A DNA stretch of 64,000 nucleotides from Pseudooceanicola batsensis HTCC2597. GTDB lineage: Bacteria; Pseudomonadota; Alphaproteobacteria; Rhodobacterales; Rhodobacteraceae. Under the pieces are notes generated by a model, which saw nothing but the letters and a program-made list of their open reading frames with translations, was not told the DNA's origin and searched no databases. Shown piece after piece: positions 8,543 through 36,674 of this stretch (its first letter is position 1; each line of letters opens with the position of its first letter). The stretch spans positions 124,001-188,000 of the forward strand of contig NZ_AAMO01000007.1 of NCBI RefSeq assembly GCF_000152725.1, read 5' to 3'. The position numbers and the translations under genes were made by a program.

Positions 8543-8608
8543 GTGGTCTCCTCCTCTGTTTCGAAGTCCCGCTGTGGCGCGGAACTCACCTCGGCCGGGA
8601 TGGCCGTT

Positions 8609-9916: not shown

Positions 9917-9926
9917 CGTCGTGCTC

Positions 9927-10448: not shown

Positions 10449-10490
10449 CGCTATTTCTTCCCTGTCATGACAAGGGCGCACATCGATTGG

Positions 10491-11267: not shown

Positions 11268-11295
11268 AACCGCCCTCCCTGTGGCGCATTTTTCG

Positions 11296-12450: not shown

Positions 12451-12455
12451 CCGCC

Positions 12456-13631: not shown

Positions 13632-13632
13632 A

Positions 13633-14823: not shown

Positions 14824-15590
14824 GATCCGACAAAGCGCGGCGGACGCTTTTCCTTGAAAGAGGCGACCGCCTCGCGGTGATCTTCAGTCTGCATGATATG
14901 GGCTTCGGCGGTTGCCTCGATCTCGAGATAGGTCGCAAAATCGCAATCCATGCCACGGTTCAGCATCGACTTGCCCAGCCCAAAGGCTCGGGTCGGCCCT
15001 TCGGCCAGACGCGCGGCCAGCGCAGCGGCCTCTGCGTCGAGCGCGTCTTCTTTGTGGATTGCGTGGACGATCCCAAGGTCGTGCGCCTCTTGGGCATCGA
15101 TCACCTGGGCCGTCAGGAACATCGCCTTCGCCCGCTGCGTCCCGACCGTCCGCGCTAGCAAGTAAAGCCCGCCACCGTCGGGTACGATCGCCACGCGCGC
15201 ATAGGCCTGGCAAAAGCGGGCCGAGGGCGCGGCCAGGATCACGTCAGCCAGAAGTGCAATGTTGAACCCCACGCCAAAGGCCGGCCCGGCAACCGCCGCG
15301 ACGACCGGCTTTTCAAGATCATATAGCATCCGGGTTATGCGGTGCTGTTGTTTCATGCGGTCCCGCATGGCCACGGGCGAAGAACCGGCGAAAGTGTTGA
15401 TGTCACCTCCGGCGCAAAACGCGCCCCCGGCGCCCGTGATCAACAGCGCGCGCACGCGGTCATCGTCGCGCACCTGGGTGACGATGCGTTCCATCTCTTT
15501 GCGTGCGTCTTGATCAAGGGCATTCTTCTTCTCGGGAAAATCGAAGGTCATCCGACCAACGCTTTCCGAGCGGCTGTAGAGCAATGGCAC
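14820..15590 (-). CDS. Enoyl-CoA hydratase/isomerase family protein (PaaG-like active site)
   Basis: This crotonase-fold protein of 256 residues starts at a GTG at 15590; I prefer it because a GGAGGAGGAAG ribosome-binding site lies just upstream. A longer in-frame ATG at 15626 would add 12 residues that carry that site. The oxyanion-hole segment is GPAFGVGFNIALLADV, and the active-site stretch is RFCQAYARVAIVPDGGG, with only an Asp at the second catalytic position, as in PaaG-type isomerases. It is the first gene of the leftward operon that ends with DctP. Confidence 0.85.
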   Translation of the reverse strand: MPLLYSRSESVGRMTFDFPEKKNALDQDARKEMERIVTQVRDDDRVRALLITGAGGAFCAGGDINTFAGSSPVAMRDRMKQQHRITRMLYDLEKPVVAAVAGPAFGVGFNIALLADVILAAPSARFCQAYARVAIVPDGGGLYLLARTVGTQRAKAMFLTAQVIDAQEAHDLGIVHAIHKEDALDAEAAALAARLAEGPTRAFGLGKSMLNRGMDCDFATYLEIEATAEAHIMQTEDHREAVASFKEKRPPRFVGS

Positions 15591-15832
15591 CGCTTCCTCC
15601 TCCCAGAATGGGCTAGCATGGAACACGATAGGAGTGGCATTGATCGACGGGCTATAGTCCGGTGCGGAATATCACACATGCATAAACTTCACCCGTTCTG
15701 TGTATTTCCTTGCGGTCTGCTGCCACGTTTGTATTGGCTTCCCTTCCCATGCGCGCCCGTCAAGCCCATGCGCGCCCGTCAAGGCTACGGGCCTCGGCAC
15801 CCCCTGTTGAAACAGCAAAGAAGAAATAGACA
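15591..15832. other. Intergenic promoter region between divergent operons
   Basis: These 242 bases separate the leftward crotonase operon from the rightward flavoprotein gene and must hold both promoters. The only repeat seen is the 19-bp tandem duplication listed separately. The CTAAC-N4-GTTAG operator found elsewhere is absent here. Confidence 0.5.
15746..15783 (+). repeat. 19-bp tandem direct repeat
   Basis: The sequence CCCATGCGCGCCCGTCAAG occurs twice without a gap, at 15746-15764 and 15765-15783, about 50 bases before the flavoprotein gene. It may be a recent slippage duplication or a doubled protein-binding site; nothing further can be said. Confidence 0.8.
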
Positions 15833-16798
15833 ATGTACTCCGACACCCCTCTCGGCCGCTTGCGCCTGCCTTTGATCTGCTCGCCCATGTTCCTGGTGTC
15901 CGGGCCGGATCTTGTCATCGCCCAGTGCAAGGCCGGCGTTATCGGCAGCTTTCCGGCGCTGAACGCACGCGAGTCCGAAGGGGAGCCGCCGCTGCTCGAC
16001 GCTTGGCTCAAGCGCATCACCGAAGAGCTTGACGCCCACAATCAGGCCAATCCCGATCGGCCCGCCGCGCCCTTCGCGGTCAACCAGATCGTCCATCGTT
16101 CGAATGATCGGATTGAGCGGGACATCGAAATATGTGCGCGCTGGAAAGTGCCGGTCTGGATTACATCAATGGGCGCACGAGAAGACGTCAATCAAGCGGC
16201 GCATGATTGCGGCGGCATTGTACTGCACGACGTGATCAACAACAAATACGCCAGGAAAGCAATCGACAAGGGCGCCGACGGCCTGATCGCGGTCTGCGCT
16301 GGCGCAGGCGGCCACGCCGGTGCCTTGTCACCTTTTGCGCTGGTTCAGGAGATCCGGGAATGGTTTTATGGTCCGCTTGCTCTGTCGGGGTCCATCGCGA
16401 CCGGGCGTGCCGTTCTGGCGGCACAGGCCATGGGCGCGGATTTTGGTTATATCGGATCGCCCTTCATTGCCATGACCGAGGCGGAGGCGTCGGAGGATTA
16501 CAAGCAGATGATCGTCGACAGCGGGGCCGATGATATTGTGTATACCAACTATTTCAGCGGCGTGAATGCCAACTATCTGAAACCGTCGGTACGGGCGGTT
16601 GGCCTTGATCCTGACAACCTAGCCGGTATCGGCAACATGCTCGATCTGGCCACCGGCGACGTTCGCCCCAAGGCCTGGCGCGACATCAGGGGCAGCGGTC
16701 AGGGGATCGGAGCGGTGAAAAAAGTGATGACGACGGCGGCGTATGTCGACCGTCTCGACCGGGAATACCACACCGCCAAAGATGCCCTCTGTCCCTGA
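15833..16798 (+). CDS. Nitronate monooxygenase-like (NPD/FMN-dependent) flavoprotein
   Basis: This 321-residue TIM-barrel flavoprotein resembles nitronate monooxygenase, formerly 2-nitropropane dioxygenase. Seen are an N-terminal PLICSPMFLVSGPDLVIAQ, the glycine-rich VCAGAGGHAGALSPFALV near residue 160, and LSGSIATGRAVLAAQAMGAD followed by GSPFIA, which form the FMN phosphate site in the family. Related proteins are sometimes annotated as enoyl reductases. Its last 180 bases lie in the 369-bp direct repeat, whose second copy at 27688 carries only this gene's 3' end. The copy here is complete and ends at TGA before a hairpin. Confidence 0.85.
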   Translation: MYSDTPLGRLRLPLICSPMFLVSGPDLVIAQCKAGVIGSFPALNARESEGEPPLLDAWLKRITEELDAHNQANPDRPAAPFAVNQIVHRSNDRIERDIEICARWKVPVWITSMGAREDVNQAAHDCGGIVLHDVINNKYARKAIDKGADGLIAVCAGAGGHAGALSPFALVQEIREWFYGPLALSGSIATGRAVLAAQAMGADFGYIGSPFIAMTEAEASEDYKQMIVDSGADDIVYTNYFSGVNANYLKPSVRAVGLDPDNLAGIGNMLDLATGDVRPKAWRDIRGSGQGIGAVKKVMTTAAYVDRLDREYHTAKDALCP

Positions 16799-16803
16799 GG
16801 AAA

Positions 16804-16831
16804 GAGGGCGGCAGGTTGCCCAGCCGCCCTT
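16804..16831. terminator. Hairpin terminator after the flavoprotein gene
   Basis: An inverted repeat GGGCGGC/GCCGCCC, extendable by an A-T pair, encloses a 10-base loop directly after the stop codon. A second copy with the same stem lies at 27873-27900 inside the right-hand direct repeat, where it would end the ligase operon arriving from the other side. Confidence 0.7.
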
Positions 16832-16869
16832 CCGTTCCTGCCGTTGTCACAGATGATCGAGAAGCAATC

Positions 16870-16987
16870 TCAGCCGTCTTTCTGGTTGATGATCAGTTCT
16901 GCATTCTCGGGTAGTTCCGAAACAATGCTCACTTCGTCGGCGCGGATTCGTGCATGCAGTTTGAAGGTTTCAACGGCGGCTGTTTCC
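16870..16987 (-). pseudogene. 3' fragment of the PaaK-like ligase gene
   Basis: These 118 bases correspond to the last ~39 codons and stop of the intact ligase at 27939-29141, lying in the left copy of the 369-bp direct repeat. Upstream coding sequence is missing, because the similarity ends at 16987 and autotransporter-like sequence follows. It marks the original convergent order of flavoprotein and ligase before the island was inserted. Confidence 0.9.
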
Positions 16988-17592
16988 AATGCCGGCCTCT
17001 ATGGCGCAAAGCGCCTGCACAACGATCTGTTTCTGGATTATTAACTTGGCGCGGCCACCGGGCGGCACGAATTCGATCTAGCTTTTGACCGCAGCATCGG
17101 CACGGTCACGGCCATCGGTGATTACCTCTACCTTGCAGGGTTTGCTGCGCGGCACTTTCTGGTGAGCTGGAATTTGGGCAAACGACACTCACACCGCGTG
17201 TCGGATTCGACTACGTCTATACCCCCGGTGCGGATGTGGACGTGCTGGCAGAACTTGGTACATTGTCAGAAGTCGGAAATCTCGAGCTCGATGCAGTCTC
17301 GGACGACACCGCCAATCTTTGGCTCAACCCGCGCATCTCCTGTCATCAGTCTTTGGGAAGTCTGGATGGCGTCTGCGGCTATGGCGGCTCCATAGGTGTC
17401 GAAGGCTCCGTCGAGGATAGCGACCCAACATATGCATTCGGATTGGATGGAGAATGGGGCGACGACTACTTCCTTGGCTCCGTGACGCTGCGCGCAAGCC
17501 GTCAAATTGGCCGCGGACTCCTCAGTGGTGATGCTGGACTGAATGCTAAAGGAGACGTTACCATGGGCGCAAGCTTCGAAATGAGCTTTTGA
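16988..17592 (+). pseudogene. Autotransporter beta-barrel domain remnant
   Basis: Read rightwards, this region encodes NAGLYGAKRLHNDLFLDY, then a TAA at 17042-17044, then LGAATGRHEFDLAFDR in the same frame. A frame change near 17150 restores TLTPRVGFDYVYTPGADVDV, and the last frame ends KGDVTMGASFEMSF at 17592. The pattern of alternating strands and the terminal Phe are typical of outer-membrane autotransporter barrels. The 5' part, including any passenger domain, is missing at the repeat boundary. With one stop and one frameshift it is not functional. Confidence 0.75.
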
Positions 17593-17673
17593 TGTCATAC
17601 GACTTATGTGCCACAATCTGAATTGAACGCAAATTGCCACGCAGCTTTTCCGCGCCGATCAAAAGAGTTTGGC

Positions 17674-18810
17674 TTATTGCTCAGCCCATGCGACACGGAA
17701 ACCGGCGTTTCCAGTCGAACTGTCCGGATCGTTTCGCGTGCGGGAATGCACATGATAGCGATCACAGTAGCTGTCGTGGCACAGGTAGGATCCCCCGCGC
17801 TGGATGCGGGCATAGCCGTCGGCCGGACCTTTCGGATCCCGCAGCGGAAATGGGCCACGAGCTGGATGCGGCGCATAGAAATCGCTGGCCCATTCCCAGA
17901 CATTGCCGCAGGTGTTGAACAGGCCGAAGCCATTCGGCGCATAGGCGGTAACCGGGGCCGTGCCGACGAAACCGTCCTCGGCCGAGTTCGTCGCCGGGAA
18001 TGCTCCTTGCCAGGTGTTCATGGCATGGTGACCGCCGGGCATCGTCGCATTTCCCCAAGGAAACCTTGCCCGCGACAGACCGCCCCGCGCGGCGAATTCC
18101 CACTGCGCCTCAGTCGGCAGGATCAGGCCCGCCCACGTGCAGTAGGCCAATGCATCGTACCACGCGACGTGCACGACAGGATGATCCGCTCTTTCGGACA
18201 GGTCGCTGTCGGGTCCTTCCGGTGCCGACCAGCAGGCCAGGTCCACCTTGCGCCACCACTCCAGCCCCGGCGGAGAAATCGGCCAAGCGGCGAGGTCCGG
18301 CAAGAGCATGTGGAACACATAAGACCAACCCTCGACCTCGGCCACGGTGCGATAGCCCGTCTCCTCCACGAAATGTGCGAAGTCCGCATTGCTGCAGGCG
18401 GTCGCCGATATCCGGAAGGGCGACACGAAGACCTTCCGGCGCGGGCTGTCGTAATCCTGCGCGAAACGCGATTGACGCGCGCCCATGTCAAAAAAACCGC
18501 CCTTGATCGATAGCAGTCGCGTGCGAAGCGCCTCGCGCGTCGCCTTTGTCGCGCGTGGCACGGCGCGCGCAACCGCGATATAGTCTTTATCGACGCTCTC
18601 GCTGCCACCTGCGCCTGGTCCGGTGCAACAACCCCTAGTCAGTTCGGTTTTCCCTCTTGGCAATGGCGTTCGTTGCAGGCTGGGACTGGGCCCCGCATGA
18701 AATGGCGTTCCGGCCGGTAGCGCCGACACCTCAGCATCGAAAGCAGTTGCATCATGCTGCAAACTCTCCGCGTTCGGCGCGCGCGGCGTCCGAGTCATGA
18801 CGGCCCTCAT
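17674..18810 (-). CDS. Formylglycine-generating enzyme (SUMF1/FGE family)
   Basis: This protein of up to 378 residues should convert the active-site Cys of the neighbouring sulfatase to formylglycine. The C-terminal catalytic stretch [19 protein letters not shown] contains both active-site cysteines (about 344 and 349), matching Cys336/Cys341 of human FGE, and continues [12 protein letters not shown]. Upstream are [14 protein letters not shown] and [10 protein letters not shown], both family hallmarks. The gene overlaps the 3' end of the sulfatase gene by 59 bases from this start; the ATG at 18798, with GAGGG before it, is an equally good start. It is the last gene of the leftward island operon. 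Confidence 0.9.
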
Positions 18811-20296
18811 CCCCGATTTCTAACATCTTCGAATCGAGTTTGGAGAGGAGTTCGGCAAAGATCGCGGAATGGGCGGGGTCATCCGCCAGATTCAGGAGTT
18901 CATTGGGGTCGGCGTCGCAGTCGAACAGTTCCCACTCCGGTGGCGCTTCGCCCTCGTTCGCTCCGATCTGCCCGAGGCCTTCGTTATACCAATAAATCAG
19001 CTTGTATCGATCCGTTCTGATTCCGTAGTGCGCATAGGCGTTGTGGATGTCGTCCATGTTCATCCAGTATCGGTGGTATGCAACATCCTGCCACGACTCG
19101 TCCGTTCGACCCTCCATCAGGGGCCGCAGGCTCACACCTTGCATATAGCTGGGCACGGGTGCGCCGGCGTAATCCAGGAAAGTCGGCGCGAAGTCGACGT
19201 TGGTGGCGATGTCTGTCGATACGGAACCGGGCGCAATAGACGCCGGATGCCGCACCAGGAACGGCATCTGCAGGGACTCCTCGTACATGAAACGTTTGTC
19301 GAACCAGCCATGTTCGCCCAGGAAGAAGCCCTGATCGGAGGTATAGATGACAATCGTGTTCTCGGTCAGGCCGTTCGTATCGAGATAGTCCAGCATCCGG
19401 CCGACGTTGTCGTCGATCGCCGCGATCGTGCGCAGATACCGTTTGATGTAGCGCTGATACTTGAACAGATCGAGGGCGCGTTTGCTGTCGAACGTAAAGT
19501 CTTCACCCGTCTTGCGATCAATAAGACGCAGCCCCTCGGGATCGTCCGGCACCTTGCGCATCGGCGATCCGGGTTGACCCAACTCGCCCACCTCGGACCC
19601 GCCTTCGGGCATGACAAGGCCCAAATCCTCGTAGGTCATGTCCTGGCGCACGCGCATCTTCGCGGCAGCCGCCGCCGCAGCGCGGTTTGCGTAGTCATCG
19701 TCGAAGGTTTCGGGCACCGGAAGATCGTCGGTGTAAAGGTCATCATAGCGCGGATGCGGCACGAAGGGGCGATGCGGCGCCTTGTGGTGGCACATCAGGA
19801 AGAAAGGGCGTTCCGGGTCGCGATCCTCCAGAAACTCAAGGCACTTGTCCGTAATGATATCCGTGGCATAGCCCGGCTCGATCACGGGGCCATCAGGACC
19901 GATCATTTCGGGGTCGAAATAGTCTCCCTGTCCCGGCAACACGGACCACGCGTCAAATCCGCTCGGCTCATGGGCTTCGCCCTCGCCCAGATGCCATTTC
20001 CCGAACATGCCCGTCTGATACCCGCTGTTGCGCAGATGTTTAGCGACATTCGGCAGGCGGCTGTCCAGATGGGTGTCCAAGGTCGTCACCAGATTCACGT
20101 GATTATGCGTCCCAGTTAGGATCGCCGCGCGGCTGGGGGTGCAGATGGAATTCGTTACATAGCACCGGTCCAGCCGCATCCCTTCGTTCGCCAGTCGGTC
20201 GATATGCGGGGTCCGGTTCAGGCCCGATCCGTAGGCTGAAATGGCGTTAGCAGCGTGATCGTCGCACATGATGAACAGGATGTTTGGACGCGGCAT
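18752..20296 (-). CDS. Cys-type sulfatase (arylsulfatase family)
   Basis: This 514-residue hydrolase should cleave a sulfate ester to release sulfate. The N-terminal [15 protein letters not shown] supplies the paired Asp metal ligands. The sulfatase signature [12 protein letters not shown] near residues 51-62 has Cys52 as the residue to be converted to formylglycine, and GKWHLGEG follows near residue 100. [17 protein letters not shown] supplies further metal and sulfate ligands. No signal peptide is seen, so it is probably cytoplasmic and would need the adjacent ABC importer. FGE is encoded immediately downstream. The ester substrate is unknown. Confidence 0.92.
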
Positions 20297-20354
20297 GTGG
20301 GACTCTCCGGTTGAATGGAAACTGGGCCCGGTCGAAACCGGACCCGTCGGGGCG

Positions 20355-21311
20355 TTAGTCGGCGTAGAACGAACCGAGGTAGAATTCCGACGCCGGCAGC
20401 GGGTCCTCGATCTTGCCGAATTGGGTGTAGAGATCGGCGAGCGTCCCGAACCAGTTCTCGACCTGACCGCCCCGGGTCAACTCTTCGTATTCCGCGCTCG
20501 AGGGAAGACGGGCCAACTGGCTTTCGGCCAGGAGCGGCGCCTCGGGCACGTTCAGGAATTCAGCGGTAATGCGCACCGCTTCCTCGGGATTCTCGCGGCG
20601 GAAATCATTTGCCGCCTTGATCACAGCGTTGACACGGCGAATGACGTCCTCGTCCTCAGCCCGTTCGTCACTGACGATGAATGACGAGGGGAACGCGATT
20701 TCGGGAAAGAAGTCTTCGTTTGACGACAACTCGTTAAGGTCTGGCACGCGCTGCTTGATGACATCGACGAAAGGATACCAGATGCCGGCCGCGTCGATCT
20801 GACCCGAAGAAAAAGCGGTGACCACGGTGGACGGATCCATAGGCACGACCTCAACGTCATCAAGGGTCATGCCCGCCTCTTCCAGCGCAAGCCGAAGCAG
20901 CATGTCACCTGAAGTCCCCTCGGGCACACCGATCTTCATGCCCGTAAGATCGGCCATGCTCTCGATACCCGGTTGGCTGATGACCCGATCCGTGTATCCC
21001 AAGGCGTTGGGCGCGATCACCTTGGCCTGTCCCGACGCGGGCAACCAGAGCGCCCCTGGTCCGATATAGGCGAAGTCGAGCGATCCCGCGTTCAGCGCCT
21101 GAACCTGGATCGGTCCGTTGGTGAAGACCTTCAGGTCCGCCTCGAGGCCGTTTTCCTCCCAGAGCCCCTGATCGGTAGCGACGGCCGCGATGGATGTGCC
21201 GAAGTAATCGGCGATGTATCCCATGCGGATTTCTTGAAGCTCCTGCGCGGCCAATTGGCCCGCAAGAGCGAATGCCGCCGTGGCGGCCAGTAGTGTTCTG
21301 CGAATGATCAT
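20355..21311 (-). CDS. ABC transporter substrate-binding protein (SsuA/TauA/NMT1-like)
   Basis: This 318-residue periplasmic protein begins at the ATG at 21311, which follows an AGGAGGAG site. It has a signal peptide ending near AGQLAAQ at about residue 22, followed by IRMGYIADYFGTSIAAVATD, typical of nitrate, sulfonate and taurine receptors. SVPEGTSGDML-like GVPEGTSGDMLLRLALEEA is also characteristic. It groups with the ATPase and permease genes upstream in the operon. The downstream sulfatase and FGE genes suggest an organosulfate ligand (inference). Confidence 0.9.
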   Translation of the reverse strand: MIIRRTLLAATAAFALAGQLAAQELQEIRMGYIADYFGTSIAAVATDQGLWEENGLEADLKVFTNGPIQVQALNAGSLDFAYIGPGALWLPASGQAKVIAPNALGYTDRVISQPGIESMADLTGMKIGVPEGTSGDMLLRLALEEAGMTLDDVEVVPMDPSTVVTAFSSGQIDAAGIWYPFVDVIKQRVPDLNELSSNEDFFPEIAFPSSFIVSDERAEDEDVIRRVNAVIKAANDFRRENPEEAVRITAEFLNVPEAPLLAESQLARLPSSAEYEELTRGGQVENWFGTLADLYTQFGKIEDPLPASEFYLGSFYAD

Positions 21312-21334
21312 GGTTTCTCCTCCTGTGATCGGTT

Positions 21335-22111
21335 TCATGCGGCCTGGGCGTCGCGGTGATAGACCGCACGCCAAACCCGGTTTCGGATTTCGGTAAATTC
21401 CGGGGACAACCGCACATCGTCGTTGCGCGGAAACGGCAAGTCGACCTCTACGATTTCCTGCAGACGCCCCGGGCGGGCAGCAAGAACGATGACGCGATGC
21501 GCGATATAGACGGCTTCATCCACGTCGTGCGTGATGAACATGACCGTGCGTTTGTCCTTGGACCAGGTGTCAAGCAGCTGGTCCTGAAGTTTGACCCGCG
21601 TCAGAGCATCTAGCGCGCCGAAGGGTTCGTCCATCAGCAGCACGCTGGGATTGACGGCGTAGGCCCGCGCGATGGCGCAGCGCTGTTTCATGCCGCCGGA
21701 CAGCGTTTTCGGATAAGCCTCGGAAAAACTGGCAAGACCGACAAGGCCAAGGTAGTGCAGCGCACGCTCCTTGCGCTTGGCCCGATCCATACCTTGCAGC
21801 TTCAATCCGAATTCGACGTTCTGGCGGACCGTGAGCCATGGAAACAATGCGTATTGCTGGAAGATGACTCCGCGGTCAGGTCCAGGGCCAAGAACCGGCT
21901 TGCCGTCCACCAAAACCTCGCCCGAAGTCACGTCCAACAGGCCCGCGACCATGTTCATCGCAGTGGATTTGCCGCAGCCCGAGGGGCCAACAACGGTCAC
22001 GATTTCCCCGTCGCGAATGTCGAGGTTCAGGTTCTTGAGTGCCGTGACTCCGCTGTCCGGCGCGCCGAAAACCTTGGTCGCGTTTCGAAAGCTGATTTTG
22101 CTCGTGGTCAT
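21335..22111 (-). CDS. ABC transporter ATP-binding protein (SsuB/TauB/NrtD-like)
   Basis: This 258-residue ATPase has the Walker A motif GPSGCGKST near residue 41, a Q loop in VIFQQYALFPW, the signature LSGGMKQR near 138, Walker B LLMDEPFGALD near 157, and a switch His in FITHDVDEAVY. It powers uptake through the permease encoded 3 bases upstream and ends 24 bases before the receptor gene. The family handles nitrate, taurine or aliphatic sulfonates. Confidence 0.93.
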   Translation of the reverse strand: MTTSKISFRNATKVFGAPDSGVTALKNLNLDIRDGEIVTVVGPSGCGKSTAMNMVAGLLDVTSGEVLVDGKPVLGPGPDRGVIFQQYALFPWLTVRQNVEFGLKLQGMDRAKRKERALHYLGLVGLASFSEAYPKTLSGGMKQRCAIARAYAVNPSVLLMDEPFGALDALTRVKLQDQLLDTWSKDKRTVMFITHDVDEAVYIAHRVIVLAARPGRLQEIVEVDLPFPRNDDVRLSPEFTEIRNRVWRAVYHRDAQAA

Positions 22112-22114
22112 GGC

Positions 22115-22909
22115 TCAGACCCTTTCCTGCCAATGGGTCAGCCACTCTTCGGCCCAAACCACGATCCGGTCCATGATAAGGCCCAGAATTCCGATCGCGA
22201 CGAGGCTGACGAAAATCGTGGGGAGGTCGTAGTAGAGCTGGGCCTGCTGCATCCGGAACCCGAGACCCGACTGCGCGGCAATCAGTTCGGCCGCCACTAC
22301 GGTAGCCCAAGCGGATCCCAATCCGATCCGGAACCCAACCAGGATGAACGGTGTGGAGGCCGGGATTATGACCTGCGTGAATATGACCCGGTCGTTCGCG
22401 CCCAAGACCCGCGCTGCGTTGATGTAGGTCTTGTCGACGCTGACGACCCCTTGGTAGGTCGAAACAACCGCCGAAAGGAAGGCCGCCAGGAAGATTACGA
22501 AGATTTTTGGCGTTTCATCAATGCCCATTGTCACGATCGCCAGCGGAATAATGGCCAACGGCGGGATCACCCGAAAGAATTGCACCCAAGGGTCGATTAC
22601 GGCCCGTGCCACCCGATACCAACCCATCAGAAATCCTGTGGGCACGGCGATGACCGATCCCAGAACGAAGCCGATCATCACCCGACGCAGCGAGGCGAAG
22701 GTGTCCTCCCAAAGCTGGCCATCAAGGGCCAATTCGATCATGCGGGTCAGCACGGCCCAAGGGCTGGGCAATTCCGACAAGCCGCCGACTGTCGCAAGCC
22801 ACCACAGTCCGATCCCACCCGCAAAGGACAAGGCCGCCCAGGTGAAGTTGTTCGGGGACCAGCGGCGCCTGGGCGCGGTGGTCACGTTAACGTCATTCGT
22901 TACGGTCAC
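22115..22909 (-). CDS. ABC transporter permease (SsuC/TauC-like)
   Basis: This 264-residue inner-membrane protein has about six hydrophobic helices and the BPD_transp_1 EAA-like loop [20 protein letters not shown] near residue 160. It forms the channel of the SsuABC/TauABC-type importer together with the ATPase encoded just downstream. The ROK regulator gene ends 26 bases upstream on the same strand, so all six island genes can be read from one promoter. Confidence 0.92.
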
Positions 22910-22935
22910 GGATCGCGTCCTCCCGTCTCCGTCGC

Positions 22936-24081
22936 TTAAGCGCGTTTCATGGCTTGAAGCCGCCCCGACCGGGCGGTGGATGCGCCGTTGTAGAAGAATT
23001 CCTCCAGGGCGATGGTGGCGGCACCTTGCACACCGACAGGCTCCGACAGACTGGACCGTTCGATTCTGAGGCGCTCGCGCTGTTGCGGCATAACGCGGGG
23101 CGCCAGATCGCGCTTGAGCGATGCGACAAAACGATCCGGCGCCGCGTTGAGGAAACCACCCAGGACAATCCGTTCAGGAGCCATCAATGTGACGGTCGTC
23201 GAAAGCGCCTGCAGGAGGTATGCGTATGTCGCCGACCAGTCAGGGCTCTGCATGGCCGCGTCGATCATCTGGGAATGGTCATCGCCCTTCTCGCCGGACA
23301 TCTTGCGCAAGGGCTCTTCGGAAAAAAAACGCTCAAGGCATCCCTGCCCGCCGCACAGGCACGGCCGTCCCCCCGGTTCGACGACAATGTGGCCGATCTC
23401 GACCGCACCGCAGCGCGCCCCTGCCCCGGTCTGGGCAAAACCCGCGCCGATCCCTTTGCCCAAAAGCAGGTAGAGGATGCTCTCGGCGTCGCGGCCAGCC
23501 CCATGAAGCGCCTCGGCCACCGCCATAGCCGTGGCATTGTGCTCGACGATGACAGGCAGCCCCAACTTTCGCTCGAAGACATCTGCAAAGGCCACGTCCT
23601 GCCAGCCCGTCAGGATGGAGCGGACGTTGACCCGGCGATTTGGATCGACGCTGCCCGGCACGCCGAGCCCCACCCCGAGAATGTCGAGCCGGTACACGCC
23701 CGATGCGTCGATGACCTCTTCCGCAAGCCTGCTGACGCGATCGACAAGGGTCTCGAGGTCCTCACTCAGGTCATAGGACAGATGACGGGGACACCGAAGC
23801 GCGAGGCCCACGTCCGACAACGCGACGCTCATGCGGCCAGCGCCCAGATGAATGCCGAGTACGAAGCGTGACTGTCGTTGGACATCCAATGTCACGGGCG
23901 GGCGACCGATGGACTTTTCTTCGACCGCCCTGGATTGCCGCAGCACCCCATCGACAATCATCTGTGCGGTCAACTTGGTAACACCCGCCGATGAAAGACC
24001 GGTGGCACGAACAAGATCGGCGCGCGACAACGGCCCTTTGTCGCGCAGTGTCTTGAGGATTTCAGCGGTTCCCAAACTCAT
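22936..24081 (-). CDS. ROK family transcriptional regulator
   Basis: This 381-residue protein has an N-terminal winged helix ([20 protein letters not shown], residues about 7-50) and a ROK sugar-kinase-like domain with the zinc motif [13 protein letters not shown] near residue 245. ROK repressors usually respond to a sugar or sugar derivative. It heads the leftward island operon of transporter, sulfatase and FGE, so it probably controls them. A palindrome-like site lies 8 bases before its ATG. No Shine-Dalgarno sequence is visible before the ATG at 24081, so leaderless translation is possible. Confidence 0.9.
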
Positions 24082-24088
24082 GGAACAT

Positions 24089-24118
24089 GGTTAGTTTACT
24101 AAGTGAGTAAAGTAAACC
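24089..24118. promoter_or_regulatory. Candidate ROK operator
   Basis: TTTACT (24095-24100) and AGTAAA (24106-24111) form an inverted repeat with a 5-base AAGTG spacer. GGTT at 24089 and AACC ending at 24118 extend the symmetry with one offset base. It lies just upstream of the ROK start codon, where autoregulation would act. Binding is inferred. Confidence 0.55.
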
Positions 24119-24433
24119 ACATACTGGTGAAGACGAAAAACACGAATATCCAAGTCTCGGCTGTTCCAAAGCCGAAAGCTTCATCGACCCTTGAGCGCGT
24201 TGGTGCCATGAATCGGTTGCCGCACCGCGGCGACGTCTATGTAGGCCTCAACGACATTTCTGTCGGCCCCGCTTACAGTTTCATGAGGACCGAAAACCCG
24301 AAGTGACCTGACACAAAAAAAATCGGCGGCGCTCATCGGCACCTCGGGTCTTGTCATGACGTGGAATGGCGATCTGGTGAAGGCCGGCCCCACGCCACCT
24401 CTTTCAATCGAAACCTGTCCGACGCCTGCAAAC
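24119..24433. other. 315-bp gap with no supported gene
   Basis: Short open frames exist on both strands, including one of 67 codons rightwards, but none has a ribosome-binding site, recognisable motif or support from its surroundings. It separates the ROK promoter from the 3' end of a broken FAH-family gene and may be decayed coding sequence. Confidence 0.4.
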
Positions 24434-24870
24434 TCAGTCGCTTTTCCTGACGGCCTGCAATTGCTCGCCCAGCCCTGCAATGCCGAATCGCATGACCTCG
24501 CACCCTTTCAGGTAAAGCTGCGGATCCAGCCCCATCCCGACCCAGGGGGGCGTTCCGATCGAGATTATATCTCCAGGTTGAAAGCTCATGAGGTTCGAGC
24601 AATAGGCAATCAAATGCGGCACCTTGTAAACCATCGTGGCCGTCGAGCCGTCCTATTGGCGCGAGCCGTCGACCTCGAGCCACATGGAAAGATTGTCGAA
24701 GTCGCCGACCTCATCCGGTATGACTAGCCACGGCCCGATCGGTCCGAAAGTGTCGCGCCCCTTGCCCTTGTCCCAGGTGCCCGCACGTTCCATCTGGAAT
24801 TCCCGCTGGGAGACGTCGTTGATCACGCAGAAGCCTGCCACATGATCCAACGCCTCCGCCTCGTCGAATG
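24434..24870 (-). pseudogene. Fumarylacetoacetate hydrolase (FAH) family, C-terminal fragment with internal stop
   Basis: Read leftwards, the frame gives EALDHVAGFCVINDVSQREF, then GKGRDTFGPIGPWLVIPDEV. After LWLEVDGSRQ comes a TAG at 24653-24655, and in the same frame TMVYKVPHLIAYCSNLMSF and GDIISIGTPPWVGMG complete the typical FAH C terminus. The TAG lies where the family has one residue before DGST, so a single base change made it. The N-terminal half is missing at 24871, where the IS3 end begins. It is non-functional as it stands. Confidence 0.85.
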
Positions 24871-25099
24871 TGAACCGCGCCGGGTTTGCGGGAGGCCTGT
24901 TGATATTATTTACGCGGCCATGGTCTGAGTTTCCAGAGACGCGTGGTAGTTTGCTTCGGCTGCGAACGCCGTAGACCCTGTAGTTCTGCTCCCAGACACG
25001 CTCGATCTCGGGCCGCAAAACCTTGTCGGGCTTGGCCCGGCCAGACAGACAGCAGGTCAGGGTTCGCCCGCTTGGCCATGTGTTCGTAGAACGTGGAAG

Positions 25100-25107
25100 G
25101 GGCAATC
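25100..25107. repeat. IS66 target-site duplication, left copy
   Basis: GGGCAATC directly precedes the IS66 terminal GTAA and is repeated at 27631-27638. Eight bases is the usual duplication for IS66 elements. Confidence 0.92.
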
Positions 25108-25131
25108 GTAACCATCCGGCGTGGGCCGCGG

Positions 25132-26757
25132 TCAGGCGGCTTTGCTGCGCTCCGACGATTGCCAGTTCCAAGGAAGCAAATCCGGCACTCGAGAGGCGGT
25201 TATCTCTGGCAAGCGAGCGAGCACATCGGCAAGCCATGCTTGGGGATCGACGTCGTTCATCTTTGCCGTGACGATCAGGGAATACATGAAGGCCGCGCGG
25301 TCGCCGCCGCGCTCAGAACCAGCGAAGAGCCATGACTTCCGACCGAGGGCGACGCCGCGCAACGCTCGTTCGGCTGCATTGTTCGTCAAGCAGATCCGGC
25401 CATCGTCGAGGAAGCGCGTGAAGGCTTCCCAGCGGTCCTTCTTGAACATGTAGGTGATCGCCTTGGCCACCGGGTTGTGCTTCGACATCGTGTCGCGTTC
25501 GCTGTGCATCCAATCGTGAAGATCATCGACCAGAGGGCGCGACCGAAGTTGTCGGACTTCGAGACGCGATCCGGCATCCAGGCCGTTGATCTCCCGTTCG
25601 ATGTCGAAGATGGCATCGATCCGCTTCACCGCTTCCAGCGCGACGGGCGAGATGTCGTGGGCCGGCTTCTTCTTGCGGGCATTCTCCTTGATGTCGGCGA
25701 GTTCGAAGAACTTCCTGCGGGCATGACTCCAGCACAGCGCGCTGCTCGCCGGACCGGGATCACGGTCGCCGCGATAGAGATCGTTGTATCCGCCATAGGC
25801 ATCGGCTTGCAGGATACCTTGCCATCCCGCGAGATGCCGGTTCGGGTGGGTCATCTCCCTGTCCCGGGAGAAGTGGAACACTGCCGCGGGCGGCGCGCCG
25901 CCCGCAAACGGCCGGTCGTCGCGGACATAGGTCCAGAGCCGCGCTGTGCGCGTACCGCCCTTCGCCAGAAGCGGTACCGTCGTGTCATCGCCGTGCAACC
26001 GCTCGGCTTGCAGGACATGGTTGCGGATCAGCGCATGGATGGGCTCAAGCGCGGCGGCACAGGCGCCCACCTGGTCGGCCAGGGTCGACAGGCTGAGATC
26101 AACACCTTCCCGGGCATAGCGCTCGGCCTGCCGGTTCAATGGCTGATGCTGCCCGAACTTCTCGAACAGGATGGTCGCCAGAAGGTTCGGCCCGGCCCAT
26201 CCGCGGGGTGTGGCGTGGAACGGCGCCGGGGGCTGGCTGATCGTCTCGCAGTGGCGGCAGGTAAACTTCTCGCGGACGGTCTGGATAACCTTCCAGCGGC
26301 GCGGAATGACTTCCAGCGTCTCGGTGACATCCTCGCCCATCTTCACGATGCGCTCGGAGCCGCAGCATGCGCAGGACGATGGCGCCTCGATCACGACCCG
26401 CTCCCGCGGCAGATGCTCCGGAAAGGGCTTGCGGACCGGGCGGCGGCGCTGGAACCCCGCGACGGAGGTGGTCTTTGCCGCCTTCTCGGCGGCGAGTTCG
26501 TCCTCGGTGGCGGCAGCCTCGAGCTCCTCGAGTTGCAATTCCATCTGGTCGATCAGGCGAGCGCGGCGCTCCGAGCTATGTCCGTATTGCTCCCGTCGCA
26601 GCTTGGCGATCTCGAGCTTGAGGTGCTTGATCATCGCCTCGGAGGTCGAGACCACCGCGCGGGCCTGTGCCAACTCGTTCTCGGCCGTCTCGGCGCGGGC
26701 CTCCGATGCCGCGAGCGCGGCACGCAATCTGGCAATCTCGGAGGTCGCATCAGGCAT
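25132..26757 (-). CDS. tnpC: IS66 family transposase TnpC
   Basis: This 541-residue DDE transposase has an N-terminal coiled-coil region (residues about 5-90), a zinc-binding section with CACCGSE and CRHCE, and the catalytic region with LHGDDTTVPLL, LQADAYGGYNDLY and TNNAAERALRGVALGRKSWL. The C-terminal region is also intact. It ends 24 bases inside the left terminus of the element. Confidence 0.95.
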   Translation of the reverse strand: MPDATSEIARLRAALAASEARAETAENELAQARAVVSTSEAMIKHLKLEIAKLRREQYGHSSERRARLIDQMELQLEELEAAATEDELAAEKAAKTTSVAGFQRRRPVRKPFPEHLPRERVVIEAPSSCACCGSERIVKMGEDVTETLEVIPRRWKVIQTVREKFTCRHCETISQPPAPFHATPRGWAGPNLLATILFEKFGQHQPLNRQAERYAREGVDLSLSTLADQVGACAAALEPIHALIRNHVLQAERLHGDDTTVPLLAKGGTRTARLWTYVRDDRPFAGGAPPAAVFHFSRDREMTHPNRHLAGWQGILQADAYGGYNDLYRGDRDPGPASSALCWSHARRKFFELADIKENARKKKPAHDISPVALEAVKRIDAIFDIEREINGLDAGSRLEVRQLRSRPLVDDLHDWMHSERDTMSKHNPVAKAITYMFKKDRWEAFTRFLDDGRICLTNNAAERALRGVALGRKSWLFAGSERGGDRAAFMYSLIVTAKMNDVDPQAWLADVLARLPEITASRVPDLLPWNWQSSERSKAA

Positions 26758-26817
26758 GGCCGAAACCTACCACGCAGCTCCCGGAAAGCCCATGAAAATA
26801 AGGGCTGCCGAGTTGTT

Positions 26818-27168
26818 TCATCCTGCTTTTGCAGGGAGTTGCGTCCAGCGCGGGTTGCGCCAGTCGATCCCCTCAAGAAGATAGCCGAGCTGCGCCGCTG
26901 AGACCTGAACAGCTTCTCCGCTACGGCTGACCGGCCAGATGAACTTCCCCGCCTCGAGCCGCTTGGTGTAGAGCGACATGCCGACCCCATCGTGCCAGAG
27001 CAATTTGACCAGGTCGCCCTTGCGCCCACGGAAACAGAAGATCTCGCCGGCGTGGGGATCGCGTCCGAGCCCCTGCTGAACCTGTAGCGCGAGGGTGTTC
27101 ATACCGCGGCGCATGTCGGTGACCCCGCCCGCGATCCAGACCCGCACCCCGGCCGGAAACGCGATCAT
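26818..27168 (-). CDS. tnpB: IS66 accessory protein TnpB
   Basis: This 116-residue protein has the conserved GVTDMRRGMNTLALQVQQ and FCFRGRKGDLVKLLWHDGVG segments of IS66 Orf2 proteins, which are required for transposition though their biochemical role is unsettled. It overlaps tnpA by 4 bases in an ATGA arrangement, indicating coupled translation. Confidence 0.95.
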   Translation of the reverse strand: MIAFPAGVRVWIAGGVTDMRRGMNTLALQVQQGLGRDPHAGEIFCFRGRKGDLVKLLWHDGVGMSLYTKRLEAGKFIWPVSRSGEAVQVSAAQLGYLLEGIDWRNPRWTQLPAKAG

Positions 27169-27569
27169 GCCCGCTCCAGGATCTGCACCAGTCGTGCAAG
27201 AGCCGACGCTTCGAGCGAGGCGTCAGCAAGCAGTCGTCGTCCGTTCTGCAAGACGATCTCGAAGCGGCCAGAGCACGCATCGCCGCGCTCGGTCTCAGCT
27301 CGCTGATCCGCGTTCGCTGTGATCGCCACCGGCGCGAAATGCATCTCGGATTCCGGCGCAGACAGCCGCCCCTGGCGTGCTTCCCGCCGCCATCGCGTCA
27401 GCAGCGAACGAGAGATGGCATGTCGCCGCGCCGTCGCCGCGGCCATCCGCGGTGCTGAATAACTCTCCTCTACGATCCGGAGCTTCTCCGCATCCGTCCA
27501 TCGACGGCGCCGACCAGTATCCGTGACCGAAAGAACTTCTACTTGGGGCATGAAGCTATGGTCTGTCAT
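27165..27569 (-). CDS. tnpA: IS66 TnpA (helix-turn-helix accessory protein)
   Basis: This 134-residue protein has a helix-turn-helix in RRWTDAEKLRIVEESYSAPR and HAISRSLLTRWRREARQG, like the first open frame of IS66 elements and the Tnp_1/IS3 OrfA fold. It is the first gene after the right-hand terminus of the element. Confidence 0.9.
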   Translation of the reverse strand: MTDHSFMPQVEVLSVTDTGRRRRWTDAEKLRIVEESYSAPRMAAATARRHAISRSLLTRWRREARQGRLSAPESEMHFAPVAITANADQRAETERGDACSGRFEIVLQNGRRLLADASLEASALARLVQILERA

Positions 27570-27630
27570 AGGTTCAGACCCTTAGCTGAAATCCAAACCC
27601 GTGTTCAGGCGGCCCTCGCCGGAGGCGTAC

Positions 27631-27638
27631 GGGCAATC
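27631..27638. repeat. IS66 target-site duplication, right copy
   Basis: GGGCAATC matches 25100-25107 exactly and follows the IS66 terminus ending at 27630. Confidence 0.92.
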
Positions 27639-27687
27639 GGCAGGTGCCTGCAGATCGGCTCGACCCCGATATCGTCACGGTATTCTT

Positions 27688-27867
27688 CTAGCCGGTATCG
27701 GCAACATGCTAGATCTGGCCACCGGCGACGTTCGCCCCAAGGCCTGGCGCGACATCTGGGGCAGCGGTCAGGGGATCGGAGCGGTGAAAAAGGTGATGAC
27801 GACGGCGGCGTATGTCGACCGTCTCGACCGGGAATACCACGCCGCCAAAGATGCCCTCTGTCCCTGA
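27688..27867 (+). pseudogene. 3' fragment of the flavoprotein gene
   Basis: The last ~59 codons of the nitronate-monooxygenase-like gene at 15833-16798 are repeated here, ending DREYHAAKDALCP and TGA. Two residues differ from the intact copy (Trp for Arg and Ala for Thr). Upstream coding sequence is replaced by the IS3 remnant, so it is not a gene. Confidence 0.92.
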
Positions 27868-27872
27868 CGTAA

Positions 27873-27900
27873 GAGGGCGGCAGGTTGCCCAGCCGCCCTT
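27873..27900. terminator. Hairpin terminator after the ligase gene (second copy)
   Basis: This is the same GGGCGGC/GCCGCCC stem as at 16804-16831, carried in the right direct repeat. Here it sits 39 bases past the ligase stop codon and can end the leftward operon that begins at 33427. Confidence 0.65.
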
Positions 27901-27938
27901 CCGTTCCTGCCGTTGTCGCAGATGATCGAGAAGCGATC

Positions 27939-29135
27939 TCAGCCGTCTTTCTGGTTGATGATCAGTTCTGCATTCTCGGGTAGTTCCGAAACAATGCTCA
28001 CTTCGTCGGCGCGGATTCGTGCATGCAGTTTGAAGGTTTCGACGGCGGCTGTTTCCGCAGCAGAAGCGTCGGCACCATCATCCAGCACAAGCGAGAGGCG
28101 GATCATGTCGCGATCGTTCTCGCGCGTTACCACGGCCTGCGCGGCCTTTGCGCCGGGCGTGCCTATGACAACTTCTTCGATCACGCGCGGGTAAACGAAT
28201 ATCTCACGCACTTTGACTGCTGCGCCGACCCGGCCCTGCAGTGTGGAAATCCGGCTGACGGTGCCATCCGCGTTGCTCTCAAGAGCAAAGGCACTGTCGC
28301 CGGTACCGAACCGGATCATCGGCCAACCTGCGTCGCGCGCGGTCACGACGACCTCGCCCGGCTCACCCTGCGGCAGCTGTTCGCCGCTGACCGGATCGCA
28401 GATCTGCACCACGCGGTTGGGATGAACCACATAGCCTTCGCCGCCATCCTCATAGGCGACAAGGCCCAGATCCGCAGTGGCATAGGCAGCCCAGGTGGAG
28501 ACGCCATAGTCGGCCTCGATTCGGCGGCGTTTGGCCATCCAGTCACCCATCTCACCGCCGAGAAACGCGGTTTTCACCTTCCAGGCGTCGCGGCCATAGG
28601 TTTCGATCACCTTATCCGCCAGTGTCAGGAAAAACGCGGTCGAGGCACAGATCGAGGTCACGCCGGTTTCGACGATGATCTGTGCCTGAAGCTCGGTATT
28701 TCCGACGCCACCGGGGATTACTGTGGCGCCCGCGGATTGCGCCGCTTCGTCGAACAAAAGCCCCGCGGGCACAAGGTGGTACATCCAGGTGTTCAGGATG
28801 ATATCCCCGGGCCCCACGCCGGCGGCCTTGAACAGCAGGTCCAGACCGTGACCGCCACCGCCCGAAAGGGCCGGTTCGAAAATCGGGCCGGGGGATACGT
28901 AGATCCGCCCGATATCCTTCAGATCCGATGCGAGGAAACCGCCGAAGGGTGGATTGTCACGCTGGATCTTCAGAAGCTCCTCCTTCTTCATCACTGGAAG
29001 ACGCGAGAGGTCCGCCACCGATGTGACGGCTGCCGGATCAAATCCGGCAGCCGTAAATCGCGATTTCAGGCCAGGAGCCATTTCGGCCGCAGCGGCATAG
29101 GCGTGCGCTATATCTTGGTAGATATCTTCAGGCAT
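27939..29135 (-). CDS. PaaK-like AMP-dependent CoA ligase with altered P-loop
   Basis: This 398-residue adenylate-forming enzyme resembles phenylacetate-CoA ligase. The A5-like YATADLGLVAYED, the A7-like MIRFGTGDSAFALE and the A8-like LQGRVGAAVKVREIFVYP are visible. The usual Ser/Thr-rich P-loop is replaced by EPALSGGGGHGLDLLFKAAG near residue 95. The C terminus ends in a Lys-containing INQKDG. The ATG at 29135 is preferred, with AGGAGG 7 bases upstream; an ATG two codons earlier is too close to that site. It would activate a carboxylic acid, perhaps an unusual one. Confidence 0.82.
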   Translation of the reverse strand: MPEDIYQDIAHAYAAAAEMAPGLKSRFTAAGFDPAAVTSVADLSRLPVMKKEELLKIQRDNPPFGGFLASDLKDIGRIYVSPGPIFEPALSGGGGHGLDLLFKAAGVGPGDIILNTWMYHLVPAGLLFDEAAQSAGATVIPGGVGNTELQAQIIVETGVTSICASTAFFLTLADKVIETYGRDAWKVKTAFLGGEMGDWMAKRRRIEADYGVSTWAAYATADLGLVAYEDGGEGYVVHPNRVVQICDPVSGEQLPQGEPGEVVVTARDAGWPMIRFGTGDSAFALESNADGTVSRISTLQGRVGAAVKVREIFVYPRVIEEVVIGTPGAKAAQAVVTRENDRDMIRLSLVLDDGADASAAETAAVETFKLHARIRADEVSIVSELPENAELIINQKDG

Positions 29136-29162
29136 TTCCATGCCTCCTCGTCCAATCAGGCG

Positions 29163-29972
29163 TTAAAGCGGGCAGTCCTTGCGGAAGTTCGGCGCGCGCT
29201 TCTCCCGGTGGGACAGAACGCCCTCCTTGACGTCTTCACTCATGAAGCCGAGCATCTCCAGCGCGGTCGACGCATCGAAGATCGGGCCAGCCTGGCGCAG
29301 CCAGTTGTTCAGCGAATACTTGGTCCAGCGGATCGCGCTTTGCGAGCCGTTGGCCAGCTCGACGGCCGTGTCCAAAGCGATCTGTTGCAATTCGTCATCT
29401 TCGACGCACATTGAGACAAGGCCGATGCGCTCGGCCTCTTCGCCCGAAACCGGCTTGCAGGTCATCAGGTAGTATTTTGCCTTGGCCATCGAGGTCAGAA
29501 GCGGCCAGATGATCGCCGCAACATCACCGGCGGCAACCCCCAGGCGCGGGTGACCATCGACGATCTTGGCCCGCTTCCCGGCAATCGAGATGTCCGCGAG
29601 GATGCCGACAACCAGACCGGCGCCGGCCGCGGGGCCGTTGATCGCGGAAATGATCGGCTTGTTGCAGTTGATGATGTTGTAGACGAGGTCCTTGGCCTCT
29701 TTCCACGTCTTCATGATCTCGTGCGAATTGCCGATCATGTTTTCGATCAGGCTGAAATCGCCGCCGGCAGAGAACGCCTTGCCCGCGCCGGTCACGATGA
29801 CGGCGTTGATGTCCGGGTCACGGTCGATGTCGATCCACATATCCGTCATCTGGGTATGGGTTTCGGCATCCACCGAGTTGAAGCTCTCGGGCCGGTCGAA
29901 CGTGATGCGCAGCACGCGATCCGCGGGATAGTCAAATTTCAGTTTGTCGTATTTTGCATAACGCTCCGACAT
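29163..29972 (-). CDS. Enoyl-CoA hydratase/isomerase family protein
   Basis: This 269-residue crotonase-fold protein has the oxyanion-hole region GPAAGAGLVVGILADISIAG and, at the active site, VDGHPRLGVAAGDVAAIIWP. The first catalytic Glu is not evident and the second position reads Asp-Val. It is neither a standard hydratase nor a clear PaaG type. It lies between the ligase gene and a pair of acyl-CoA dehydrogenase genes in the leftward operon. Confidence 0.85.
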   Translation of the reverse strand: MSERYAKYDKLKFDYPADRVLRITFDRPESFNSVDAETHTQMTDMWIDIDRDPDINAVIVTGAGKAFSAGGDFSLIENMIGNSHEIMKTWKEAKDLVYNIINCNKPIISAINGPAAGAGLVVGILADISIAGKRAKIVDGHPRLGVAAGDVAAIIWPLLTSMAKAKYYLMTCKPVSGEEAERIGLVSMCVEDDELQQIALDTAVELANGSQSAIRWTKYSLNNWLRQAGPIFDASTALEMLGFMSEDVKEGVLSHREKRAPNFRKDCPL

Positions 29973-29999
29973 GGGTCTTTTCCTCCGTAGGGTATGGGT

Positions 30000-31151
30000 T
30001 TAGCCTGGCAGTCCGAGAACGGCCTTGGACAGGATGTTTCGCTGGATTTCGTTCGATCCGCCGTAGATCGTGGTCGGCCTGGCCTTGTAGAAGCTCGCAA
30101 GGACATCGACACTTACGTTGCCGACCTGAAGCGGGCCGACGGTGCCGCCATCGGGTCCGGCGGCCTCGATCATCAATTCGGTGATGCGCTGAAAGCACTC
30201 GGTCACCCAGATCTTGAGCATCGAGACATCCGCGCCCAGCGTTTCGCCTCGCTTCAGTTGGTCGGCGAAGCGGGCGTAAAGCGCGGCGTGATCCTCTACA
30301 TCAAGCGCGGCCTGTGCAAAACGGTCACGGAATACCGGATCGTCGAAAGCGCCACGGCCCCGGGCAAAGCTCTCAAGCTGACCCAGGGCGTTCTGGGCCA
30401 GGCTGGGCGCGCCGATGAAGATGCGCTCGAAGCTCAGGAGCGCCTTGGCCATGCTCCAGCCCTTGTTCAACTCGCCCACGAGGTTTTCGCGCGGCGTGCG
30501 GGCATTGTCGAAAAAGACCTCGCAAAACTCGGTTTCCCCGGAAAGCGTGGTGATCGTGCGCACCTCGACGCCGGGCTGATCCATCGGGGCCAGGACAAAG
30601 CTGATGCCCTGCTGTTTCCTGGGCGTGTCCGGTTCGGTGCGCACCAGCATGAAGATATGCGTGGCGTCATGCGCCATCGTGGTCCAGATCTTCTGCCCGT
30701 TTATGACGAACTCGTCGCCGTCAATCTCCGCGCGGGTGCGCAGGTTGGCCAGATCGGACCCGGCACCGGGTTCGGAATAGCCCTGGCACCAGATGTCCTC
30801 GCAACTGAGAATGCGCGGCAGCCAATAGTCCTTCTGTTCCTGGGTGCCAAACTTGATGATCAGCGGGCCGACCATCTGCACACCCATATCGCGCCCGCGA
30901 TTGACACCCCAGCGTTGCTGTTCTTCGTAAAAGATCAAGAGTTTGGCGGCGTTCAGCCCCATGCCGCCATATTCCGCAGGCCAAGCCGGCGCGACCCAGC
31001 CTCTGGCGTGCAGCTTGCGGTGCCAGGGTTCGATCTCGCAAAATTTGGGTCGGTGCGGCAGGTGGCGCAGCTCCTCGGGGTACTCGGCCTCAAAAAAACC
31101 GCGCACTTCCTTGCGGAACTCCGCATCGCTCATTGCGTTCCAGTCGGTCAT
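30000..31151 (-). CDS. Acyl-CoA dehydrogenase, FAD-binding subunit of a likely heteromer
   Basis: This 383-residue protein keeps the canonical features: SEPGAGSDLANLRTRAEIDG near residue 128, QKIWTTMAHDATH, and a C-terminal TTIYGGSNEIQRNIL. Glu in LLSFERIFIG is the likely base. The adjacent gene at 31148, overlapping by 4 bases, encodes a shorter dehydrogenase without these C-terminal motifs. Such pairs are typical of alpha2beta2 dehydrogenases like ChsE1-ChsE2, so I propose a heterotetramer (inference). Confidence 0.9.
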   Translation of the reverse strand: MTDWNAMSDAEFRKEVRGFFEAEYPEELRHLPHRPKFCEIEPWHRKLHARGWVAPAWPAEYGGMGLNAAKLLIFYEEQQRWGVNRGRDMGVQMVGPLIIKFGTQEQKDYWLPRILSCEDIWCQGYSEPGAGSDLANLRTRAEIDGDEFVINGQKIWTTMAHDATHIFMLVRTEPDTPRKQQGISFVLAPMDQPGVEVRTITTLSGETEFCEVFFDNARTPRENLVGELNKGWSMAKALLSFERIFIGAPSLAQNALGQLESFARGRGAFDDPVFRDRFAQAALDVEDHAALYARFADQLKRGETLGADVSMLKIWVTECFQRITELMIEAAGPDGGTVGPLQVGNVSVDVLASFYKARPTTIYGGSNEIQRNILSKAVLGLPG

Positions 31152-36671: not shown

Positions 36672-36674
36672 GGC

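Follow-up and report, generated by a model that had tools for sequence, protein, structure and literature searches.

The 64,000-nucleotide stretch of Pseudooceanicola batsensis HTCC2597 analysed here (contig NZ_AAMO01000007.1, positions 124,001 to 188,000; hereafter the window, with positions counted from its first letter) carries an island at 16988-27687 that is bordered by two 369-bp direct repeats. These repeats are made of the 3' ends of two convergent genes, coding for a nitronate monooxygenase-like flavoprotein and a phenylacetate--CoA ligase-like protein. Comparison with related sequences indicates that an insertion into the ancestral convergent junction is real, because a single, uninterrupted junction contiguous with both genes is found in 10 of the 11 related sources compared. 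The best account of its origin, held with middling confidence, is a recombinase-free illegitimate insertion with long target duplication that would have taken place on plasmid-like DNA.

The two copies of the repeat align without gaps and with nine mismatches (97.6% identity). The similarity breaks off abruptly at both sides of each copy, the edges being exact. The repeats and the gene fragments that they hold are the following:

16619..16987, no strand: left 369-bp direct repeat (flavoprotein 3' end, intergenic hairpin and ligase 3' fragment)
16870..16987, reverse strand: orphan 3' fragment of the ligase gene (repeat alignment)
27688..28056, no strand: right 369-bp direct repeat (flavoprotein 3' fragment, intergenic hairpin and ligase 3' end)
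27688..27867, forward strand: orphan 3' fragment of the flavoprotein gene (repeat alignment)

The final 180 bp of the flavoprotein gene, a short intergenic stretch and the final 118 bp of the ligase gene make up the left copy. The right copy contains the same pieces, here continuous with the remainder of the ligase gene. Both the 97.6%-identical repeats derived from neighbouring gene ends and the allotment of one intact end and one 3' fragment to each copy had been described in the original prediction, and both agree with the alignment and the gene coordinates. If the contig ends and a multi-copy sequence of 1,272 bp at 100% are set aside, the pair is the sole direct repeat of at least 100 bp and at least 85% identity in the 285-kb contig (C7), and is therefore not attributable to chance. 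The same thresholds yielded no repeat in contigs C4 of G014 and C5 of G008, which represent one plasmid.

The ten sources with an empty site are the genomes G014, G399, G198 and G089 and six named plasmids, from Paracoccus sp. SCSIO 75233, Sagittula sp. P11, Sulfitobacter alexandrii, Marinovum algicola, Sagittula sp. MA-2 and Roseovarius indicus. The 11th source, G206, is devoid of the flavoprotein side. The junction is also uninterrupted in G008 and G020, which carry nearly the same plasmid as G014; in these three genomes of the same genus the plasmid is 99.98-99.99% identical over the parts compared, so that together they were counted as a single empty site. Several of the ten share identical or nearly identical repeat sequences with tree branches near zero, which leaves about five or six independent empty haplotypes. 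Positions 1-16987 and 27688-55771 of the window are collinear with G014, the island being the sole large interruption. The proposal that the island splits an ancestral convergent pair is thus supported by the flavoprotein-ligase junctions of relatives. As a side observation, G014 matches G008 at 99.99% over 106.7 kb and G020 at 99.98% over the 40 kb compared, and the near-identical plasmid-like sequence of the three genomes points to a recent transfer.

All six named plasmids with this locus were typed as conjugative. The window's contig contains DNA that matches type IV secretion gene clusters of 197 plasmid records, with 76-81% identity in the eight of them listed, and is therefore best described as plasmid-like; its ends fall in repeated sequence.

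The history of the duplication can be read from the changes that separate the left copy (L) and the right copy (R) from their relatives. At positions 20, 103 and 215 of the repeat, L and R share a change that is absent from every outgroup sequence covering the site (10, 11 and 11 sequences, respectively, G206 having no letter at position 20); position 315 is ambiguous. Seven changes relative to R and G399 are specific to L (positions 70, 105, 154, 181, 231, 248 and 354, the last of which varies among outgroups) and two, at 24 and 183, to R. Over 369 positions, L and R differ at 9, R and G399 at 8, and L and G399 at 13. The maximum-likelihood tree joins L and R with 93.3% support in the Shimodaira-Hasegawa-like approximate likelihood ratio test (SH-aLRT) and 97% in the ultrafast bootstrap (UFBoot), and the approximately unbiased (AU) test rejected both alternative trees (p about 0.02, at a replicate number below the program's recommendation). 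By these comparisons the two copies are each other's closest relatives, and the junction was in all likelihood duplicated in this lineage or received from a very close relative. Since three changes are shared by these closest relatives, the nine differences would have arisen after the copies separated in this lineage. The distances also suggest that the duplication is not recent relative to the split from G399. The nine substitutions had previously been taken to suggest that the incoming molecule carried a diverged homologue of the junction. This was not supported by the analysis: in view of the three changes common to both copies and of the tree, a diverged foreign homologue was rejected as a needed source of the differences.

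The flanks of the junction resemble G399 as well. Differences from this genome are low, 0-5 per 100 bp from about 14500 to 16618, except for 23 in 15700-15799, an interval about equally different from G014, G198, Paracoccus, Sagittula P11, S. alexandrii and Marinovum. On the other side, 1 and 3 differences per 100 bp were counted in 28057-28256, followed by 1-12 per 100 bp to 29656. A G399-like haplotype therefore flanks the junction on both sides, from about 14500 to about 28256. Further out, the window is a mosaic. Its boundary is sharp near 14500: to the right, identity to G399 is mostly 98-99.5% (93% in one 400-bp interval), and over 9800-14599 it is 82-91%. The tract 14500-16618 is 91-98% identical to six other sources and only about 83% to G089. 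This boundary may be read as a sign of recombination between related plasmids. A second mosaic tract, 29657-31256, is about 93-97% identical to the plasmid of Paracoccus sp. SCSIO 75233 and about 84-92% to other sources.

The island itself is composite. It consists of a conserved sulfatase operon with a decayed surface-protein fragment on its left and the remnant of an IS3-family insertion sequence (IS) on its right, in which an IS66-family element landed later:

16988..17592, forward strand: left edge of the island, C-terminal part of a large surface protein, decayed and truncated at 16988 (protein homology to G210)
24462..24870, reverse strand: fumarylacetoacetate hydrolase-family fragment, cut by the IS3-family end (Pfam FAA_hydrolase, E 3.5e-19; DNA matches in G021 and G017)
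24871..25107, reverse strand: IS3-family remnant, terminal and internal piece, with an internal deletion at 24960/24961 (homologue alignment)
25100..25107, no strand: left copy of the 8-bp IS66 target duplication, GGGCAATC
25108..27630, reverse strand: IS66-family element, 2,523 bp (NF033517, 471.8 bits)
27631..27638, no strand: right copy of the 8-bp IS66 target duplication, GGGCAATC
27639..27687, reverse strand: remaining part of the IS3-family remnant, truncated at 27687 next to the start of the right repeat (alignment to homologue L161)

Both island edges cut through coding or element sequence, a surface-protein gene on the left and the interior of the IS3-family remnant on the right. The left-edge fragment shares 55-57% amino acid identity with the end of a 1375-residue open reading frame (ORF) of G210, the nearest relative found, in which adhesin-repeat, Ig-like and OmpA domains were recognised. 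It is decayed by a stop codon, a frameshift and an internal gap. Its part at 17236-17592 matched no Pfam family, and the left edge had no DNA match in the plasmid collection or in the other 21 genomes of the genus. Among 394 genomes of the family, the DNA beyond the repeat gave three weak, short matches only (28-47 bases, E about 3e-4 to 6e-4), and protein comparison recovered three genomes besides its own, the match being clear in G210 alone. On the right, the IS3-family remnant lacks about 650 bp of internal sequence that its homologue has. Its alignment to L161 runs to 27687, after which the homologue reads CGATGAAGG and the window the repeat sequence CTAGCCGG, with one shared base.

The IS66-family element is younger than its host remnant. 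It sits within the latter with its own 8-bp target duplication, which implies that it arrived after the IS3-family sequence and did not cause the repeats. A second copy on contig C2 of the same genome is 99.96% identical and bears its own duplication, GGCTCATC. Misassembly or a chimera at IS66 is unlikely, both genomic copies having matching 8-bp duplications of their own. No known mobile-element end coincides with an edge of the insertion: IS66 is internal, the IS3-family remnant is cut internally and the left edge cuts its one known protein relative. Nor is the arrangement that of a composite transposon, in which an IS would sit at each edge and end at the target duplication. The Pfam scan of eight island ORFs revealed neither an integrase nor a restriction or methylase family, small ORFs lying outside the scan.

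In the favoured illegitimate insertion, a segment of about 8.2 kb with arbitrary ends, comprising the sulfatase operon and its decayed neighbours, would have been captured between plasmid ends overlapping by 369 bp. One plasmid end would have reached into the ligase gene and the other would have begun within the flavoprotein gene. Such a configuration could result from filler DNA joining two sister copies broken at different points, from a staggered break that was filled in, or from a replication fork that switched template and returned 369 bp upstream. With an overlap across both stop codons, each gene would keep an intact end with its hairpin. The two copies would have been identical initially and would then have drifted, and IS66 would have landed afterwards in the IS3-family remnant. 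Two nonhomologous joints, one per island edge, would be needed by any account, and the simplest supposition is that both were formed in one event. This explanation is preferred because of the empty site, the gene-cutting edges, the duplication within the lineage itself, the lack of an integrase in the scanned ORFs and the existence of a known class of such insertions.

Descriptions of insertion with long target duplication (Nobusato et al. 2000) concern Helicobacter pylori in one source (PMC1643837) and, in another, restriction-modification systems whose duplications are of the order of 100 bp (PMC3874152). As in the cases these papers describe, long direct target repeats flank the inserted genes, and relatives without the insert reveal it. 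At the present locus the target is single and uninterrupted in relatives, the direct duplication is long and the edges are free of known mobile-element ends. Restriction-modification genes, a frequent cargo in the published cases as described in these sources and not a strictly defining one, are replaced here by a sulfatase operon. The duplication reaches 369 bp against about 100 bp in those systems, the setting is plasmid-like DNA, and the convergent gene pair is intact. In its structural features the insertion is therefore a clear example of a known, rarely documented kind, and it departs from that kind in cargo, duplication length and plasmid-like setting.

Several observations weigh against this explanation. 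Simple end joining uncommonly involves long overlapping ends. The divergence between L and R (2.4%) is near the distance to G399 (R 8 and L 13 of 369), so either the duplication is nearly as old as the split from G399 or the copies differed slightly from the beginning. Seven of the nine changes fell on the left copy, an imbalance not predicted by equal drift and yet compatible with it (two-sided binomial p 0.18). The Kishino-Hasegawa (KH) and Shimodaira-Hasegawa (SH) tests left the alternative trees unrejected (p 0.075). Lastly, the microhomology of 1 bp was assessed at the right joint alone.

A serious rival, possible though rather doubtful, is the Campbell-type integration put forward in the original prediction. 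It would here involve a single crossover between the resident junction and a circle that bore the sulfatase segment together with 369 bp left over from the junction. The donor could have been, for example, a related conjugative plasmid that was cut, trimmed and recircularised in the recipient, in keeping with the conjugative typing of the six related plasmids and with the type IV secretion-like DNA of the window's contig. A precedent exists in E. coli conjugation with a non-replicating plasmid, where, as described, 56 of 60 clones gave a PCR product of a partial duplication of the homologous segment and the 14 clones sequenced had duplications of 109-950 bp (PMC3240628). The explanation given there is a single crossover of a circle missing part of the segment, most likely after partial degradation and recircularisation (PMC3240628). 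The likeness lies in the partial duplication of gene ends around inserted DNA; the difference is that the homologous segment was cloned in the donor there (PMC3240628), whereas no donor circle or joint is known here. If L and R were reciprocal mosaics of resident and incoming alleles, any crossover point would fit, the nine differences being split between left-flank-linked and incoming changes from 1:8 to 7:2, and a crossover near the stop codon would divide them 4 to 5. Against this stand the two illegitimate joints that the donor circle would require besides the crossover, and the need for a donor junction of the resident's own lineage, given the changes shared by L and R. Neither island joint was found elsewhere: with 120-bp queries, none of 72,556 plasmid records covered at least 80% of either joint, and viral contigs gave no exact 20-base match to either, absences that are no proof. 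The data do not decisively separate a one-event insertion from a Campbell-type integration. A further reading, considered a long shot, is that the 369-bp junction serves as an attachment site that works through homology: recombination of the two repeats by RecA would release a circle able to enter the same convergent junction on any related conjugative plasmid. If true, cargo without a recombinase gene of its own would move among marine genera via a shared plasmid junction.

Tandem duplication followed by replacement had also been proposed for the island, and is conceivable at the cost of more steps. In another history, a large tandem duplication or a plasmid cointegrate arising through long homology would have been followed by two deletions that left the 369-bp overlap by chance. 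Gene-cutting edges at both sides would be explained, and the mosaic flanks imply that recombination between related plasmids has occurred here. Nevertheless, three or more events are required, no longer remnant of either duplicated gene lies beside the island and the 285-kb contig holds no longer repeat of the locus, which makes this history unlikely. The least credible reading, its chance being slight in the extreme, is that IS66, IS3 or an integrase, located in or near the island, brought about the insertion by transposition or site-specific integration. This reading could draw on the IS66- and IS3-family sequences at the right end, but IS66 carries a separate 8-bp duplication and its end lies 49 bp inside the repeat edge, the IS3-family remnant is cut internally at the edge, and the scanned ORFs include no integrase. 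A length of 369 bp far exceeds the usual target duplications of such elements. Transposition of IS66 or IS3 was accordingly rejected as the cause, the edges and target duplications not fitting and the edge positions arguing strongly against it.

The cargo had been called a 10.7 kb sulfatase island. The extent of the insert (16988-27687) stands, and its description as one sulfatase block does not: the operon proper occupies 17674-24081, 2,523 bp belong to the later IS66 element and both edges are decayed fragments. The operon core comprises six genes:

17674..18810, reverse strand: formylglycine-generating (sulfatase-modifying) enzyme (Pfam FGE-sulfatase, E 6.9e-70)
18752..20296, reverse strand: sulfatase, with the C-T-P-S-R motif read in the translation (Pfam Sulfatase, E 1.3e-53; SGSH_C, E 1.8e-48)
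20355..21374, reverse strand: SsuA-family ABC transporter substrate-binding protein (TIGR01728, 212.9 bits, cut-off 163.5)
21335..22111, reverse strand: ABC transporter ATP-binding protein (Pfam scan)
22115..22909, reverse strand: ABC transporter permease (Pfam scan)
22936..24081, reverse strand: ROK-family regulator (Pfam scan)

From the ROK regulator onwards, the permease, ATPase, SsuA-family binding protein, sulfatase and formylglycine-generating enzyme genes recur together, with their order conserved, in 3 of 34 compared loci (34 of 80 returned). These are L080 (a Vannielia metagenome-assembled genome), L081 (Salipiger aestuarii) and L082 (Pontibrevibacter nitratireducens); a partial operon is present on one Martelella plasmid and in G127. 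The cargo thus has the gene content and order of a sulfatase, sulfonate-type ABC transporter, formylglycine-generating enzyme and ROK operon of Rhodobacterales. The three complete loci differ from the present one in their surroundings, no flavoprotein or ligase match at E 1e-8 being found within the DNA examined around the operon.

On either side of the island, the two resident genes are complete:

15833..16798, forward strand: intact nitronate monooxygenase-like flavoprotein gene, 321 residues (Pfam NMO, E 5.6e-19; last 180 bp inside the left repeat)
27939..29141, reverse strand: intact phenylacetate--CoA ligase-like gene, 400 residues (same gene in related plasmids named phenylacetate--CoA ligase family)

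For the ligase-like protein, no Pfam family was matched at E 0.001, and the NCBIfam matches were under their cut-offs. Between both stop codons lies a G+C-rich hairpin that folds on either strand of each copy (z -2.1 to -2.5) and that a simple consensus scan did not list as a terminator. The duplicated piece spans both stop codons of the tail-to-tail pair, so that both genes stay complete. Intact neighbours at the junction would be expected if gene-breaking insertions were lost.

In a weak selection test, the changes private to the window numbered 8 nonsynonymous against 6 synonymous in the flavoprotein gene (15833-16798) and 9 against 23 in the ligase gene. Those of the flavoprotein gene include W286R and D179Y, at positions invariant in the 10 sequences compared, and selection on this gene may be relaxed. 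For the neighbouring enoyl-CoA hydratase gene, a single comparison sequence was available and the same test was uninformative. Elsewhere in the window, two adjacent stretches in 44656-46679 are about 71-72% alike with a spacing of 1343 bp, suggesting an old tandem gene duplication. The inverted stretches 5967-6849 and 36012-36898, 71% complementary and about 29-31 kb apart, are probably paralogues encoded on opposite strands.

With empty sites in several genera, the locus offers a well-resolved natural case of cargo entry into plasmid-like DNA without a visible integrase or transposon, and a useful system in which to distinguish one-step illegitimate insertion from crossover with a trimmed plasmid. 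It suggests that tail-to-tail junctions are safe places for insertion, a duplication over both stop codons leaving the neighbours whole, and the repeats left behind would permit clean excision.

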